Source of the DNA: Halorientalis regularis | GTDB taxonomy: Archaea; Halobacteriota; Halobacteria; Halobacteriales; Haloarculaceae | Direction of reading: 5' to 3' | Length of the DNA: 64,000 nucleotides | NCBI RefSeq assembly: GCF_023698535.1 | Contig: NZ_JALJCL010000003.1 | Coordinates: 124,001-188,000 of the forward strand | In this document: positions 28,489 to 56,894 of the stretch, in pieces | How positions within the stretch are numbered: the stretch's first letter is position 1 | Layout: the number at the start of each line of letters is the position of its first letter | Notes under the pieces: model-generated | The model's database searches: none | The model's input: the letters and a program-made list of their open reading frames with translations, nothing else | Told to the model about the DNA's origin: nothing | Made by a program: the position numbers and the translations under genes

Positions 28489-28515
28489 GGAGATGCGAGT
28501 GGCGCGAGCATCTCC
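28489..28515. repeat. hairpin with GAGTGGCGCGA loop
   Basis: The 8-bp stem GGAGATGC/GCATCTCC closes an 11-nt loop GAGTGGCGCGA, the same class as 16260-16286 and 53288-53312. It lies right behind the dehydrogenase stop. Confidence 0.7.
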
Positions 28516-28560
28516 GGACGCGCGAGTGGCGACGACGGAGCCGCGAGCTGGCCGCCTCGA

Positions 28561-28598
28561 CCGACGGGAGAGTCGGCGGGCGAGCGGGCCGAAGGCCC
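28561..28598. repeat. two further small hairpins between dehydrogenase and pterin synthase
   Basis: CCGAC/GTCGG (28561-28576) and GGGCC-GAA-GGCCC (28586-28598) follow the GAGTGGCGCGA hairpin. The 171-nt gap (28487-28657) therefore holds a cluster of stems and no gene. It may be a terminator, an RNA processing region or a repeat remnant. Confidence 0.5.
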
Positions 28599-28657
28599 AC
28601 GAGGCCGCACAGCAGCGGCGGGAGACTTAGGTGGCGACGGGCCGTGGTACGTTCTAT

Positions 28658-51682: not shown

Positions 51683-52128
51683 CGGTTCGCGTCGCGTTCG
51701 TCTGCGTCCAGAACGCCGGCCGCTCCCAGCTGTCGGCGGCCTTCGCCGAGCGGGAACGCGAGGAGCGCGGACTCGAAGACGACGTGACGATCCTGACCGG
51801 CGGCACCCACCCCGCCGACGCGGTCCACGAGGAAGTCGTGGCGGTCATGGCCGAGGTCGGGTTCGACCTCTCGGGCCGAGAGCCCCGCGAGATCGGCACC
51901 GGGGAACTGAACGCCTGTGATTACGTCGCGACGATGGGCTGTTCGACGCTGGAACTGGATGCGGACGGGCCGGACGTCCGCGACTGGGCACTCGACGATC
52001 CGGACGGACAGGACCCCGAGGAAGTGCGAGCGATCCGCGACGAGATCGAGGGTCGCGTGGGCGACCTCTTCGACGAGATCGAGCGAGCGGTCGAGGAGGA
52101 ACGCACGGCGGAGGTGACGGATGAGTAA
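51679..52128 (+). CDS. arsC: arsenate reductase, LMW-PTP type
   Basis: A 149-residue low-molecular-weight phosphatase-fold arsenate reductase: the P-loop FVCVQNAGRSQLSAAF has CX5R (Cys9, Arg15), and a redox Cys pair lies in NACDYVATMGCS (Cys at about 86 and 94), as in thioredoxin-dependent ArsC. WALDDPDGQDPEEVRA contains the general-acid Asp. It reduces arsenate to arsenite for export by ACR3. Overlaps both neighbours (4 and 8 nt). Confidence 0.93.
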   Translation: MTVRVAFVCVQNAGRSQLSAAFAEREREERGLEDDVTILTGGTHPADAVHEEVVAVMAEVGFDLSGREPREIGTGELNACDYVATMGCSTLELDADGPDVRDWALDDPDGQDPEEVRAIRDEIEGRVGDLFDEIERAVEEERTAEVTDE

Positions 52129-53284
52129 CGCCGCTCACGACCACGGCCCGGACTGTGAGTGTGAGAGCTGTGGCGACCCGCGGTCGATGGACTTCCTCGA
52201 CAAGTACCTCACCGTCTGGATCTTCGGCGCGATGGCCGTCGGCGTCGGCCTCGGGTTCGTCGCGCCCAAAGTAACGAGTCCGATCCAGGAGTTCCACCTC
52301 GTGGAGATCGGACTCGTCGCGATGATGTACCCGCCGCTGGCCAAGGCCGACTACTCGCAGTTGCGCGCGGTGTTCAGCAACTGGCGCGTGCTGAGTCTGA
52401 GCCTCGTCCAGAACTGGCTCATCGGGCCGACGCTGATGTTCGGGCTCGCGGTCGTGTTCTTCAGCGGCCTCGTCCCCGGCCTGCCCGCGCGGCCGGAGTA
52501 CTTCCTCGGGCTGGTGTTCATCGGGATGGCCCGCTGTATCGCGATGGTACTGGTCTGGAACGAACTGGCCGAGGGCTCGACCGAGTACGTCACCGGTCTC
52601 GTCGCGTTCAACAGCCTCTTCCAGATCCTCACGTACGGCGTCTACGTCTGGTTTTTCGGCCTCGTCCTGCCCCCACTGTTGGGCATGGACGCGCTCGTCG
52701 CCGGCATCCAGACCTTCGACGTGACACCGATGCAGGTGTTCGAGGCTATCGTCATCTTCCTCGGCATCCCGTTCGCCGGCGGCTTCCTCACCCGCTACGT
52801 CGGGACCCGGTGGAAGAGCGAGCGGTGGTACGACGAGCAGTTCGTTCCGAAGATCGATCCCCTGACGCTGGTCGCGCTCCTCTTTACCGTGATCGTGATG
52901 TTCGCGACCCAGGGCGAGAACATCGTCGCCGCGCCCGGTGACGTGTTGCTCATCGCCGTGCCGCTGACGATCTACTTCGTCGTGATGTTCCTCGTCAGCT
53001 TCGGCATGGGGAAAGGGATCGGCGCGGACTACTCGACGACGACGGCCATCGGCTTCACGGCCGCCTCGAACAACTTCGAGCTCGCCATCGCCGTCGCGGT
53101 CGCGGTGTTCGGCGTCGGCTCCGGCGTCGCCTTCACGACCGTCGTCGGGCCGCTGATCGAAGTCCCCGTCCTGCTCGCGCTGGTCAACGTCGCGCTGTAC
53201 TTCCAGCGGCGGTTCGACTGGAGCGGGACCGCGCCCGATGGTCGTGACCCGTCGCCCGCCGAAGTAACCACCGAGGACGATTGA
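52121..53284 (+). CDS. acr3: ACR3-type arsenite efflux permease
   Basis: A 387-residue membrane transporter with ten predicted helices. The ACR3 signatures GMARCIAMVLVWNELAEGS (with the substrate-binding Cys) and TAASNNFELAIAVAVAVFGV (with the conserved Glu) are present. It exports arsenite using the proton gradient. The N-terminal 25 residues are unusual: MSNAAHDHGPDCECESCGD contains a CxCxxC metal-binding-like cluster not found in most ACR3 proteins. It ends the ars operon. Confidence 0.93.
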   Translation: MSNAAHDHGPDCECESCGDPRSMDFLDKYLTVWIFGAMAVGVGLGFVAPKVTSPIQEFHLVEIGLVAMMYPPLAKADYSQLRAVFSNWRVLSLSLVQNWLIGPTLMFGLAVVFFSGLVPGLPARPEYFLGLVFIGMARCIAMVLVWNELAEGSTEYVTGLVAFNSLFQILTYGVYVWFFGLVLPPLLGMDALVAGIQTFDVTPMQVFEAIVIFLGIPFAGGFLTRYVGTRWKSERWYDEQFVPKIDPLTLVALLFTVIVMFATQGENIVAAPGDVLLIAVPLTIYFVVMFLVSFGMGKGIGADYSTTTAIGFTAASNNFELAIAVAVAVFGVGSGVAFTTVVGPLIEVPVLLALVNVALYFQRRFDWSGTAPDGRDPSPAEVTTEDD

Positions 53285-53287
53285 CGA

Positions 53288-53312
53288 GGGACGCGAGCGG
53301 AGCGAACGTCCC
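53288..53312. repeat. hairpin with GAGCGGAGCGA loop
   Basis: Stem GGGACG/CGTCCC, inner mismatch, loop GAGCGGAGCGA; third member of the loop family also found at 16260 and 28489. It lies 4 nt after the acr3 stop. Confidence 0.65.
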
Positions 53313-53343
53313 GAACGGGTGAGCGGGGAGGAACGACCCGCGA
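53309..53343. repeat. 35-nt repeat, intergenic copy
   Basis: This stretch matches 55037-55071 at 31 of 35 positions. It contains a CGGGT/ACCCG inverted repeat around GAGCGGGGAGGAACG. The other copy lies inside a protein-coding gene. Confidence 0.7.
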
Positions 53344-53429
53344 GCCGGGCGGTTCGCTCCCCCGAGCAGAACCGTCGGGCGGGCGATGAGAACTCGCCGG
53401 TATTTTGGTCGGCCACACGAACACTCGGT

Positions 53430-54188
53430 ATGGACGTATCGACGGCGCTACCCTGGCGACGCGTCGGGTTGCTCGCGGCGGGACTTGGCCTCACCATCGG
53501 CGGCATCATCCTCGGCGTGGGCGTGCTGTTCGCCCTCATGGCCGTTCTCATCCTGGGTCTCGGACTCGACCTGTCGAGTCAGAGCCTCCTGATCTTGAAC
53601 CTGATCGCCGTCCAGGGCGTGGGCTTCCCCGTCGTCGGCTACGCGTACCTCCGATATCGAGGCCGACACGTGTGGGAATTCGTCCCGACCGCGATCCCGA
53701 GTCTCCGCCAGATCGGCGTGATCGTCGGCGGCTGGCTCGGAGCGCTCGTTCTCGTCAGCATCGCCGGCGTCGTGATCCAGCTCACCGGGACGACGGCCGC
53801 GGAGAACCAGGCCGGGCAGGTCGTCGCCGAGAACCCCGAATTCGTCCCGTTCCTGCTCCCCTTCGTCTTCCTCCTCAACGGCCCCGGCGAGGAGTTCCTC
53901 TTTCGGGGTGTCATCCAGGGCCGGTTCCGCGAGGAGTTCGGCCCTGCGGCCGCCATCGTCCTCGCCACGCTGATGTTCGCACCGATCCACGTCTTCTCCT
54001 TCGTCGGTGCCACTGCACAGGCGGCGCTCGTGACGATCAGCATCCTCACCGTCCCGAGTCTGGTCTTCGGCGCGGTCTACGAGATCACGGACAACTTCAC
54101 CGTCCCGGCGCTGGTTCACGGCCTCTACAACGCGACGCTGTTCGGCAGTATCTATCTGGCCGACACCGTGGCACTGGCAGGCATATGA
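53430..54188 (+). CDS. CPBP-family intramembrane metalloprotease
   Basis: A 252-residue membrane protein with about seven to eight helices. The CPBP/ABI motifs are all present: GPGEEFLFRGVIQGRFREEF (EE...R), ATLMFAPIHVFSF (H) and PALVHGLYNATLFG (H...N). Such enzymes (Rce1-like) cleave or protect membrane peptides; the substrate is unknown. ATG 53430 lies about 27 nt downstream of GTATTTTGG. The upstream open frame passes through the repeat and is not translated. Confidence 0.88.
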   Translation: MDVSTALPWRRVGLLAAGLGLTIGGIILGVGVLFALMAVLILGLGLDLSSQSLLILNLIAVQGVGFPVVGYAYLRYRGRHVWEFVPTAIPSLRQIGVIVGGWLGALVLVSIAGVVIQLTGTTAAENQAGQVVAENPEFVPFLLPFVFLLNGPGEEFLFRGVIQGRFREEFGPAAAIVLATLMFAPIHVFSFVGATAQAALVTISILTVPSLVFGAVYEITDNFTVPALVHGLYNATLFGSIYLADTVALAGI

Positions 54189-54234
54189 CCGGATCGAGCG
54201 CCGTCTCTTAGTAGCCGGCCCTCCAACTGCGGGT

Positions 54235-54516
54235 ATGGACGACGACGGGCGACTCCGACGGTTCGTCGAGAACCTCCGGTCGGCCGGCGACCAGTTCGCC
54301 GAGGCGAAGCGCGCCTACAGCGACGCCAAACGGGCCGCGCTGGCCGACCTCCCGCAGGACGACCGGGGCCGCGCGAAGCTCGTCTGTCGCCGCTACGCCG
54401 AGCGACGCGCCGTCGCGCTCGACGATGCCGGTCGCCCCGCCTGTTTCGACCCCGACCACCGCGACTGTCAGGGCTGTGTCGAGGACGTGCGCGAGGGCGT
54501 CGTCGAGACCTGGTAG
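54235..54516 (+). CDS. small haloarchaeal hypothetical protein
   Basis: A 93-residue protein (MDDDGRLRRFVENLRSAGDQ...) with a basic helical core and a Cys-rich C-terminus PACFDPDHRDCQGCVEDVRE (CxnCxxC), possibly one metal site. Similar proteins are haloarchaeal DUF families of unknown function. A T5 tract follows the stop. Confidence 0.65.
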   Translation: MDDDGRLRRFVENLRSAGDQFAEAKRAYSDAKRAALADLPQDDRGRAKLVCRRYAERRAVALDDAGRPACFDPDHRDCQGCVEDVREGVVETW

Positions 54517-54518
54517 GC

Positions 54519-54523
54519 TTTTT
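54519..54523 (+). terminator. T5 tract after the 54235 gene
   Basis: Five T residues lie 3 nt after the stop and 24 nt before the next start; a simple U-tract terminator. Confidence 0.35.
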
Positions 54524-54547
54524 GCCCCGAGCGGCCGTCGGGTCGGT

Positions 54548-55606
54548 ATGGACCGTCCGCTCGTCGCCGTCGTCCTCGCCGGCGGCACCGGCACCCGGCT
54601 CTACCCCGCCAGCCGGAGCCACCGGCCAAAGCAACTCCAGTCGTTCGACGGCAAGCAGTCACTACTCTCGGCCACCGTCGACCGCGCCGGCTTCGCCGAC
54701 GACGTGTACGTCCTCACCCGCCCGGAGTTCGCCGAGTCCGTCCGCGAACACGCGCCACAGGCCGCCGTCCTCACCGAACCCGCACCGAAAGACACCGGTC
54801 CTGCCATGGTGTACGCGGCCCATCGCATCCGCGACCAACTGAGCGAGGCCGTCATGGTCACCCTGCCCAGCGACCACCGCATCGACGGCGACTTCGCCGG
54901 CACCGCCCGCGCGGCCGCGCAGGTCGCCGACAGCACCGGCGGCCTCGTCACCGTCGGCGTGGAACCGACCCGCGCCGCGACGGGGTACGGATACATCCAG
55001 CCCGGAGAACGGCGGGAGGTCGACCATCGGGAGCCCTCCGAACGGGCGAGCGGGGAGCAACGACCCGCGACCCGCGACGGCTACCACACCGTCGCCTCCT
55101 TCACTGAAAAGCCCGACCGCGACACCGCCGACCGATACGTCGAGCAGGGGTACTACTGGAACGCCGGCATCTTCGCGTGGACGCCCAACGCCTTCCTCGG
55201 CGAGGCCCGGCAGTCCTCGCTGGGCCCGCTCGTCGAGGCCATGGACGACGGCGACCCCGACCGCGGCTTCGCGGCCGTCGACCCCGTCAGCGTCGACTAC
55301 GCCGTCCTCGAACGCACCGACAAGGCCTACGTCGTCCCCGCGAGTTTCGAGTGGGACGACCTGGGCTCGTGGGACGCCGTCGAACGCCTCTTCGAGGCCG
55401 ACGAGGCGGGCAACGTGGTGCTGGGCGACGCCCTGCTCGAGGACGCCACGAACGCTGTCGTCGCCACCGACGGCCACGTCAGTGCCGTCGGCGTCTCGGA
55501 TCTGGTGATCGCCAGCTACGGCGACCGGACGCTGGTGATCCCGAAGGATCGCGCGCAGGAGGTCCGCGACATCGTCGCGCAGTTGCGCGATGAAGACCGA
55601 TATTAA
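54548..55606 (+). CDS. manC: mannose-1-phosphate guanylyltransferase, with a repeat-encoded insertion
   Basis: A 352-residue sugar nucleotidyltransferase: VVLAGGTGTRLYPASRSHRPK (signature 1), VMVTLPSDHRIDGDFAGTAR (D of the catalytic metal site), YGYIQPG, FTEKPDRDTADRYVEQGYY and WNAGIFAWTPNAFLGEAR. GDP-mannose is the likely product, feeding glycosylation. Between YGYIQPG and DGYHTVASFTEKPD lies an extra segment of about 23 residues (REVDHREPSERASGEQRPAT), absent from usual homologues, encoded by a repeat that also occurs in non-coding DNA at 53309. Frame and catalytic motifs are intact, so the enzyme should tolerate it as a surface loop. Confidence 0.9.
   Translation: MDRPLVAVVLAGGTGTRLYPASRSHRPKQLQSFDGKQSLLSATVDRAGFADDVYVLTRPEFAESVREHAPQAAVLTEPAPKDTGPAMVYAAHRIRDQLSEAVMVTLPSDHRIDGDFAGTARAAAQVADSTGGLVTVGVEPTRAATGYGYIQPGERREVDHREPSERASGEQRPATRDGYHTVASFTEKPDRDTADRYVEQGYYWNAGIFAWTPNAFLGEARQSSLGPLVEAMDDGDPDRGFAAVDPVSVDYAVLERTDKAYVVPASFEWDDLGSWDAVERLFEADEAGNVVLGDALLEDATNAVVATDGHVSAVGVSDLVIASYGDRTLVIPKDRAQEVRDIVAQLRDEDRY
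55037..55071. repeat. 35-nt repeat, copy inside the manC gene
   Basis: Matches the intergenic 53309-53343 at 31 of 35 bases and contains the same palindromic core. It encodes the extra residues of the nucleotidyltransferase in frame. Confidence 0.7.
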
Positions 55607-56388
55607 CTCCGCAGACTCCCGCCGTCGACCGGCACCGCCGCGCCGGTGACGTAACTCGCCGCCTCGCTGGAGAGCCAGGCGACGGTCTCGCCCAGTTCCT
55701 CGGGATCGCCAATCCGTTCCAGCGGGATGCCGTCCGACCAGTCGTCCAGCCCCTCGTCGTAGCTCTCGTACTCGCCGCGGTCGATGTTCTGCTCGATCAG
55801 GTCCTCGATGCGGCTGGTCTCGTGTGCCCCCGGCAGGACCGCGTTGACCCGCACGTCGGGCGCGAACTCCCGCGCCTGGGTCTTCATCAGCCCGATGACC
55901 GCCCGGCGGACCGAATTCGAGAGGACCAGCCCGTCGATGACCTCCTGCACCGACCGGGAGGTGATGTTGACGACGGTCCCCGCGTCGCTCTCTTGCAGGT
56001 GTGGATAGGCTTCCCGGGTCGTCCGCACGACGCTCATCACCAGCAGGTCGTAGGCCGAGTAGAAGTCCGCGTCGTCCATGTCGAGGAAGGGTCCGCTCGG
56101 CGGGCCGCCCGCGCTCGTGACGACGTGATCCAGCCCGCCGAAGGCATCGACGGTCTCGTCGACGAACCGCTCGATGTCGTCGGCGTCGGTGATGTCGGCT
56201 TCGACGGCCAGCACGCCGCCGTCACCGAGTTCCTGCAGGGATCGCTCGGCCTCGTCGAGGCGCTCCGCCGACCGGCCACAGATCGCAACGTCCGCGCCCT
56301 CGCGGGCGAACGCCTCGGCGCTGGCCAGACCGAGGCCGCTGCTGGCTGCCGTACACAGTACCGCGTTCCCGTCGAGTTCGAGATCCAT
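55603..56388 (-). CDS. SDR-fold oxidoreductase with altered active site
   Basis: A 261-residue SDR. The N-terminal AVLCTAASSGLGLASAEAFA is a normal NAD(P) motif (TxxxGLG), and SAGGPPSGPFLDMDD plus NAVLPGAHETSRIEDL are conserved. The catalytic region reads NITSRSVQEVIDGLVLSNSV-RR: Ser is present but the YxxxK tyrosine and lysine are replaced by Ser and Arg. It may be a redox-silent or differently acting SDR branch. ATG 56388 (MDLELDGN). Its stop overlaps the convergent manC gene by 4 bp. Confidence 0.85.
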   Translation of the reverse strand: MDLELDGNAVLCTAASSGLGLASAEAFAREGADVAICGRSAERLDEAERSLQELGDGGVLAVEADITDADDIERFVDETVDAFGGLDHVVTSAGGPPSGPFLDMDDADFYSAYDLLVMSVVRTTREAYPHLQESDAGTVVNITSRSVQEVIDGLVLSNSVRRAVIGLMKTQAREFAPDVRVNAVLPGAHETSRIEDLIEQNIDRGEYESYDEGLDDWSDGIPLERIGDPEELGETVAWLSSEAASYVTGAAVPVDGGSLRS

Positions 56389-56420
56389 GTCCGGGCCGAC
56401 GGCGGCCGCCACCTAAAGGC

Positions 56421-56894
56421 TCACTCCTCGGGCCGCTGGCGCACCCGCACCGCGCCGTCGCTGGTGACGCCGACGAACAGCCGCCGATCGACGTTGCGCC
56501 CGACCACCGCGTCGCCCGCCTCGTCGCTGATCCGCTTCATGAGTTCCGGGGCCGTGTGGTTCACCTTGACCCCGACCTCGTCACACTCCGCGAACACCCG
56601 CGCCGGTACGTCGTAGAGGTCCGTCCCCGCATCGAGGGTGATCTGGACCGGCGCGCGCAGCGTCTCCGCGAACGCGATAGTCTCCCGGGCCTTCGAGACG
56701 TTGTCGCGGGCGCTGGACTCGACACTGGAGACGTTCGCTCGCGACGTGCCCAGCAACTCGGCGATCTCGGCCTGCGCCAGCCCCCGCTCGCGCAGTGCCA
56801 GCACCTCCGCCTGTCGCCGCGTCAGGACGTTCTCCGCGGGGTCGAATCCCGCCCGCTCCAGAATCCCGTCGACGTCGATCTCGTCGTCAGTCAT
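56421..56894 (-). CDS. tfx: Tfx-family DNA-binding protein
   Basis: A 157-residue protein: an N-terminal helix-turn-helix FDPAENVLTRRQAEVLALRE / LAQAEIAELLGTSRANVSSV typical of Tfx, and a C-terminal domain (PVQITLDAGTDLYDVPARVF). Tfx regulators control molybdenum or metabolic genes in some archaea. ATG 56894 is used. The upstream SDR is on the same strand, 32 nt downstream of the stop. Confidence 0.85.
   Translation of the reverse strand: MTDDEIDVDGILERAGFDPAENVLTRRQAEVLALRERGLAQAEIAELLGTSRANVSSVESSARDNVSKARETIAFAETLRAPVQITLDAGTDLYDVPARVFAECDEVGVKVNHTAPELMKRISDEAGDAVVGRNVDRRLFVGVTSDGAVRVRQRPEE

Follow-up and report, generated by a model that had tools for sequence, protein, structure and literature searches.

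The extra segment of a haloarchaeal ManC-type enzyme very probably comes from a small, dispersed palindromic element inserted in frame

Most discussion of palindromic insertions that leave a gene in frame has centered on Rickettsia, whose small populations and the drift within them offer a natural excuse. The Rickettsia palindromic elements (RPEs; Ogata et al. 2000, 2002) occur both between genes and, in frame, within them (reviewed in PMC2229807 and PMC10969869), and are 105–146 base pairs (bp) long, with long stem-loops or long terminal inverted repeats (PMC2229807). Archaeal repeats fused into protein genes are mentioned in a passage of PMC2229807 that cites Suyama et al. 2005, so that, as far as this citation goes, archaea already have a precedent of this kind. 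The present study concerns a stretch of 64,000 nucleotides (nt) from the haloarchaeon Halorientalis regularis (contig NZ_JALJCL010000003.1, forward-strand positions 124,001 to 188,000; hereafter the window), in which a manC-type gene, mannose-1-phosphate guanylyltransferase-like, carries an extra segment. This segment is very probably an in-frame copy of a small palindromic element that is dispersed in haloarchaea.

Copies of the element were scored with a covariance model, R1, built from nine copies in the H. regularis genome with the manC copy excluded from training. The features that carry the argument are as follows.

54548–55606, + strand: manC-type gene, 352 amino acids; Pfam NTP_transferase 3.4e-32, ManC_GMP_beta-helix 1.1e-13.
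55015–55072, + strand: in-gene copy of the element in manC, 58 nt, a double hairpin; R1 62.4 bits, E=2e-11 genome-wide and 3e-13 in the window.
55015–55039, + strand: hairpin A of the manC copy, arms 55015–55021 and 55033–55039 around GA-CC-ATC-GG-GA.
55048–55070, + strand: hairpin B of the manC copy, GA-GCGGG-GA-G-CAA-C-GA-CCCGC-GA, stem GCGGG (55050–55054) with CCCGC (55064–55068).
53288–53345, + strand: intergenic copy, 75.6 bits, E=2e-16, beginning 3 nt past the stop codon of an ACR3-type gene.

The element is a unit of about 58 nt consisting of hairpin A, a short spacer and hairpin B, with tandem G·A mismatches in both hairpins. The arms of hairpin A vary among copies yet are self-complementary, around a GA-(2 bp)-NNN-(2 bp)-GA core, and hairpin B is the more constant of the two, with a sequence of about GCGGG-GA-G-NNN-C-GA-CCCGC. 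The manC and intergenic copies are identical at 42 of 58 positions in this register, and the window matches a 33-nt consensus of both repeats only at 53311–53343 and 55038–55070, where none was expected (100 shuffles). A first-pass annotation of this DNA had described a palindromic repeat of 35 nt shared by the two places; the palindrome and the identity of 31/35 hold, but the partner lies at 53310–53344 rather than 53309–53343, which gives 12/35, and the repeat is the second half of the double hairpin rather than a unit by itself. That annotation also lacked the double-hairpin unit, its spread through Halobacteria, its position after stop codons and its fixed strand and frame. Because a scan of the window for any GA-hairpin gave no excess over other dinucleotide pairs, the single hairpin is not distinctive there and a two-hairpin model was needed; plain repeat finding in the window was discarded as a detector, its output being mostly codon-bias repeats. 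Rfam returned no family over either element in the stretch 52500–56500, even at E<=1.

Pairing is strongly maintained among the copies. The R1 seeds were trimmed and chosen by hand, with a lean toward regular stems, and 95 distinct copies found by the model were therefore counted as well. In the nine seeds 95.4% of cells are paired, with 32 two-sided changes against 10.4 in shuffled data; in the 95 copies, whose alignment was fitted to the structure, the figures are again 95.4% paired and 397 two-sided changes against 117 shuffled, with about 31 one-sided changes. Stem pairs in the larger set seldom change through G-U and nearly always change on both sides, and since so few G-U intermediates would be unusual for compensating RNA, this pattern suggests that the arms are renewed as DNA units, by arm-to-arm copying or whole-hairpin replacement, and not by slow compensatory RNA evolution. 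In the spacer after the ACR3-type gene, the window and H. persicus share the site and much of hairpin B, and hairpin A is wholly exchanged. This spacer (window 53284–53430, compared with L070, L069, L071 and L034) is strongly divergent, with no element in H. pallida and several hairpins in the genome labelled G006.

The extra ManC segment lies, as the first-pass annotation had placed it, between the YGYIQPG and FTEKPD motifs of a nucleotidyltransferase. Judged against relatives it measures 20 residues (60 nt), in place of the 23 or so first proposed, and the peptide REPSERASGEQRPATR falls within it. The spacing from GYG to EKP is 44 residues in the window ManC and 24 in H. persicus, H. salina, H. 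marina and two further Halorientalis species (G001 and G006), exactly 20 codons being missing at the site in all five, so that close relatives without the segment do exist. The DNA of H. persicus, G006 and G001 shows a 60-nt alignment gap opposite the element, and the H. persicus enzyme is otherwise close to that of the window (93% identical in a profile comparison). The net insertion is thus 60 nt, with exact ends ambiguous by a few bases. A nearly identical 20-residue segment is present in H. pallida, in whose copy all seven outer pairs of hairpin A are formed, as against six of seven in the window. Segments of 20 residues, diverged in sequence, occupy the same site in the metagenome-assembled genome (MAG) LUM.68, where R1 still recognizes the element at 32.3 bits (E=1e-5), and in the genome G002; a segment common to every close homologue but differing in its DNA is, however, not what is seen.

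The host protein keeps the conserved motifs of a ManC-type nucleotidyltransferase. Its closest solved structures are 2cu2 and 2x5s (Foldseek against 2cu2: E=1.4e-33, template modelling score 0.84), the invariant columns are kept, and both the NTP_transferase fold and the ManC beta-helix domain are found. In an AlphaFold model based on 55 related sequences, the mean predicted local distance difference test score (pLDDT) is 94.6; it drops from >90 to about 71–73 at residues 161–180, where the modelled segment connects strands 148–157 and 178–187, and the rest of the fold is confident. The segment is thus predicted to be a surface loop, and the insertion probably extends the turn between two strands and is near neutral for the enzyme. 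The ManC-type enzyme of Thermotoga is without the extra segment. The earlier proposal, that of an intergenic repeat which entered a reading frame and has persisted there as a loop, is supported, the surface position being a prediction of the model.

ManC is one of about 16 sites of in-frame insertion, most of them in Pfam-recognised proteins. The in-gene copies of the H. regularis genome are in ManC, an E2 acyltransferase, a TrpD2-like protein, the tail of UreB, a DUF5810 protein and ScpA, all sense and in the same frame, which bears out the expectation that manC would not be alone. Further sites are in PGM/PMM, NadB, TrpE, MutS (a two-copy tandem; the protein was identified by sequence recognition, not Pfam), PurO, a CxxCxxCC protein and a DUF7573 protein. 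The ScpA insertion is present in H. regularis and G001, and the E2 acyltransferase carries two different element copies in different species. Pairs of filled and empty orthologs confirm insertion at ManC, PGM, PurO, the TrpD2-like gene and the CxxCxxCC protein. PGM is filled in G006 only, among eight genomes by profile match, the loop having been read directly in five; among the species recovered, PurO is filled in G006 only (20 extra residues) and the TrpD2-like gene in H. regularis only (about 17 extra residues). The CxxCxxCC protein has copies at different positions in two species, G006 and LUM.68.

At every one of the roughly 16 in-gene sites the element is in the sense strand, with hairpin A in one reading frame. 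This strand bias is not explained by stop codons, because antisense frames are open more often: among 144 copies, 1–8 contain a stop in each antisense frame, compared with 40–57 in each sense frame. Of the six frames, the one used in genes has the highest hydrophilicity and the lowest basicity, and the encoded peptide, roughly (S/G)EDERSESSExASGEERPAS, is rich in Glu/Asp/Arg/Ser. The arm GAGGAC, which reads Glu-Asp in this frame, is present in 13 of 22 in-gene copies and in 14 of 122 others (p=3.6e-6, orthologous copies being counted separately), and in our reading selection has favored those insertions that give acidic, soluble loops fit for a cytoplasm rich in salt; a strand-specific insertion process is a possible alternative. 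The element would be, or would have been, mobile and non-autonomous; a copy landing in a gene would persist only if its length, strand and phase leave the frame open and give a hydrophilic peptide in a tolerant loop.

Several candidate in-gene copies were rejected. In three apparent antisense cases (L190, L191 and L232) the gene starts were over-extended, the element lying ahead of the first recognisable part of the protein; the gene call at L228 was weak; and the start calls were doubtful for L255, L258 and the second match at L243.

Likeness to RPEs is one of behavior. The haloarchaeal element is dispersed both between and inside genes; its in-frame insertions in conserved genes have empty relatives, at the five genes named above; and a recurrent peptide from one frame, the shifted hairpin B of the G006 CxxCxxCC protein aside, is apparently tolerated. 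The element may therefore be said to work like RPEs by analogy, with no sequence relation claimed. Because it is about 58 nt long with two short hairpins, and so departs from RPEs in both length and terminal repeats, it is not classed with the RPEs; tandem G·A mismatches, copy-variable stems, a position after stop codons, tandem arrays and an archaeal host set it apart as well. The first-pass annotation was thus right to see the Rickettsia idea in a haloarchaeal host, but, going by the citation of Suyama et al. 2005 in PMC2229807, this is not the first archaeal case; those repeats, known here by that citation and not by sequence comparison, resemble the present element in being archaeal repeats in protein genes. 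Repetitive extragenic palindromic (REP) sequences, the bacterial interspersed mosaic elements (BIMEs) that they form and REP doublets (REPINs) are similarly short hairpin repeats with tens of copies per genome, mostly intergenic and often clustered. REP elements are described in PMC3733652 as having a GTAG or CGTC tag beside the hairpin, whereas the aligned consensus of the haloarchaeal element has neither; moreover, the upstream gene goes with a fixed orientation of the element, which is often found in frame within genes. Some miniature inverted-repeat transposable elements (MITEs) make in-frame fusions (PMC2229807, PMC10969869) and are, like this element, short non-autonomous repeats, but here two hairpins are internal and no terminal inverted repeats bound the unit, nor were a constant target-site duplication or TA ends seen, the ends being ambiguous. 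Mitochondrial genes of Nematomorpha contain long, perfect coding inverted repeats of up to 284 bp (PMC6649704), which share with the present case palindromes within coding sequence but form no dispersed double-hairpin family.

The element is abundant and widespread. The H. regularis genome has at least 62 copies, that in manC among them, and seven other Halorientalis genomes have 26–86 each (E<=0.1; lower bounds). At E<=0.001, 119 of 145 sampled Halobacteria genomes were matched, as were 16 of 19 genomes of the same order in a phylum-wide sample; none of about 101 genomes of other orders in that sample was matched, many of these being AT-richer, which favors a negative. Methanocaldococcus jannaschii, in whose protein genes the earlier archaeal repeats reportedly lie, was not among the genomes searched. 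Among the 12 genomes to which manC loci had led, a match at E<=0.001 was obtained in a haloarchaeal MAG alone. Viral contigs gave no exact match to one strict pattern, which says little about diverged copies, and no description of this element was found in the literature on haloarchaea, whose incomplete coverage makes this weak evidence of absence. Tandem arrays are common, with a spacing of about 60–64 nt; arrays of four to five non-identical copies spaced by ~60 nt occur at L217 (G000:C8:28059-28240) and L259.

Outside genes, copies tend to follow stop codons. Of 24 arrays examined in H. regularis, 6 are in genes and 18 outside; 16 of the latter have a sense upstream neighbor, and 10 start within 12 nt past its stop codon. 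In three sets combined, the upstream neighbor is sense for 44 of 55 non-genic arrays (p=4e-6) and 29 of the 55 begin within 12 nt of the upstream stop. These figures, together with the strong conservation of pairing and the retention of an element at the orthologous ACR3-type site of the window and H. persicus despite a different hairpin A, are what would be expected if the element were primarily a functional mRNA 3′-end signal (for termination, processing or stability) selected after stop codons, with in-gene copies as strays rather than selfish marks. We consider this rather unlikely, since orthologous 3′ ends are often without the element (H. pallida after the ACR3-type gene; H. persicus and G001 after the L227 gene, where H. 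regularis and LUM.68 have it directly after the TGA), many copies stand between co-directional genes (the downstream neighbor is sense in 12 of 17 cases in H. regularis), and so few G-U pairs are unusual in an RNA signal. Such a function does not, in any case, contradict insertion into manC.

It is improbable that Halorientalis manC had the 20-codon segment from the start and that the species now lacking it have lost it. The same site is filled in four genomes, including the distant G002, and one old insertion with several losses would be possible; but the short form, with the 24-residue spacing, predominates in other genera and is that of the Thermotoga enzyme, a precise and scarless loss would be needed in each of five species, and the copies in the window and H. 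pallida are young, the latter having a perfect 7-bp stem A and the former one mismatch, whereas that of LUM.68 is decayed. The least credible account, and a very remote one, is that the protein merely has an ordinary loop of variable length, and that chance or convergence has made its GC-rich codons for acidic residues look like the repeat: the YGYI...FTEKP length does vary in other haloarchaea (24–29 residues; 37 in Halogeometricum pallidum), and LUM.68 and G002 have diverged segments, but it is the DNA itself, and not the peptide alone, that fits the double hairpin in a copy on which the model was not trained, with stem A perfect in H. pallida, an exact 60-nt presence or absence among relatives, the same pattern in the PurO, PGM and TrpD2-like genes, and related copies with the whole structure in DNA outside genes.

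Insertion of a dispersed element, the reading favored here, has several observations weighing against it. No transposase, target duplication or movement has been demonstrated, no search having been aimed at a cognate Y1 (RAYT) transposase. The G002 segment is marginal (15.3 bits, E=0.13) and too decayed to classify alone. Hairpin B shares the frame of hairpin A except in the G006 CxxCxxCC protein, where an indel has shifted it. Genes around the copies were called with a codon-usage scorer of our own, trained on the window, and not with a standard annotator. Finally, on a tree of 1326 protein columns (E2, PGM, ManC, SDR and a small neighbor, loops removed), the carriers of the manC insertion, H. 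regularis, LUM.68 and G002 (tips G000, G007 and G002), are not a clade (approximately unbiased test, p=2e-6), and the segment requires at least 3 changes, so that one has to assume more than one insertion, precise loss or transfer between species. The history may have been one of several insertions into a single tolerant loop, of alleles passed from species to species, or of an old insertion followed by losses. Carriers at E2 are patchy like those at manC, with different copies. Depending on the Halorientalis species, the catalytic-domain loop of E2 (L263 compared with L260, L261 and L262) contains one or another copy of the element or some other acidic segment, and is an insertion hotspot.

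More broadly, and only tentatively, a mobile double hairpin, spread through Halobacteria and possibly targeting coding-region ends, might repeatedly give conserved enzymes acidic hydrophilic loops in fixed orientation and frame, its stems being renewed as DNA units, and so form a standing source of insertions in halophiles. If most sampled genomes of haloarchaea, which are free-living, have a system comparable to that of Rickettsia, this would show that repeats can be a source of insertions in conserved proteins even where there is no host-restricted decay. With so many orthologous sites available in filled and empty form, tolerance, frame bias and insertion mechanism are testable in genetically tractable haloarchaea. 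The case also cautions that some haloarchaeal loops and tails (of the EDERSESSE type) derive from repeats, with effects on annotation, alignments and loop-based inference.

At ManC, PurO, the TrpD2-like gene, PGM and the L227 3′ site, no constant direct repeat was seen by eye that would mark a target-site duplication, the ends being ambiguous. The idea that one arm is templated by, and pre-exists in, the target was set aside as a remark, such an arm not having been seen at the ManC, PurO and TrpD2-like sites. At PGM, relatives whose site is empty (L279, L280; LUM.68) nevertheless have there the left arm GGAGGAC of hairpin A of the insertion (L276, G006).

Other features of the window that belong to this family or adjoin it are the following.

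52121–53284, + strand: gene upstream of the 53288 copy; we take its product, from general knowledge, to be an ACR3-type transporter.
28490–28548, + strand: third strong copy, 51.9 bits, E=1e-10, beginning 3 nt past the stop of the upstream sense gene.
28552–28604, + strand: weak tandem neighbor of the preceding copy, 20.3 bits, E=0.004.

Elsewhere in the H. regularis genome, one copy (L151 / L220, G000:C4:116980-117039) lies directly downstream of an apparent tRNA 3′ end. In the L208-type gene (L292, L293, L296, L306), a GAGTAG end stands immediately ahead of the element in the genomes that carry it, whereas those without it read on through several further residues (ERDVVSGD, ARDPVSGD) to a TGA; judging from these sequences, insertion may have changed the stop codon. 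Another copy (L013 / L224, G000:C40:242026-242085) overlaps the C terminus of a predicted small protein whose last residues are ...ETSGCASGERSDP, which suggests that protein tails have been made by reading into the element.
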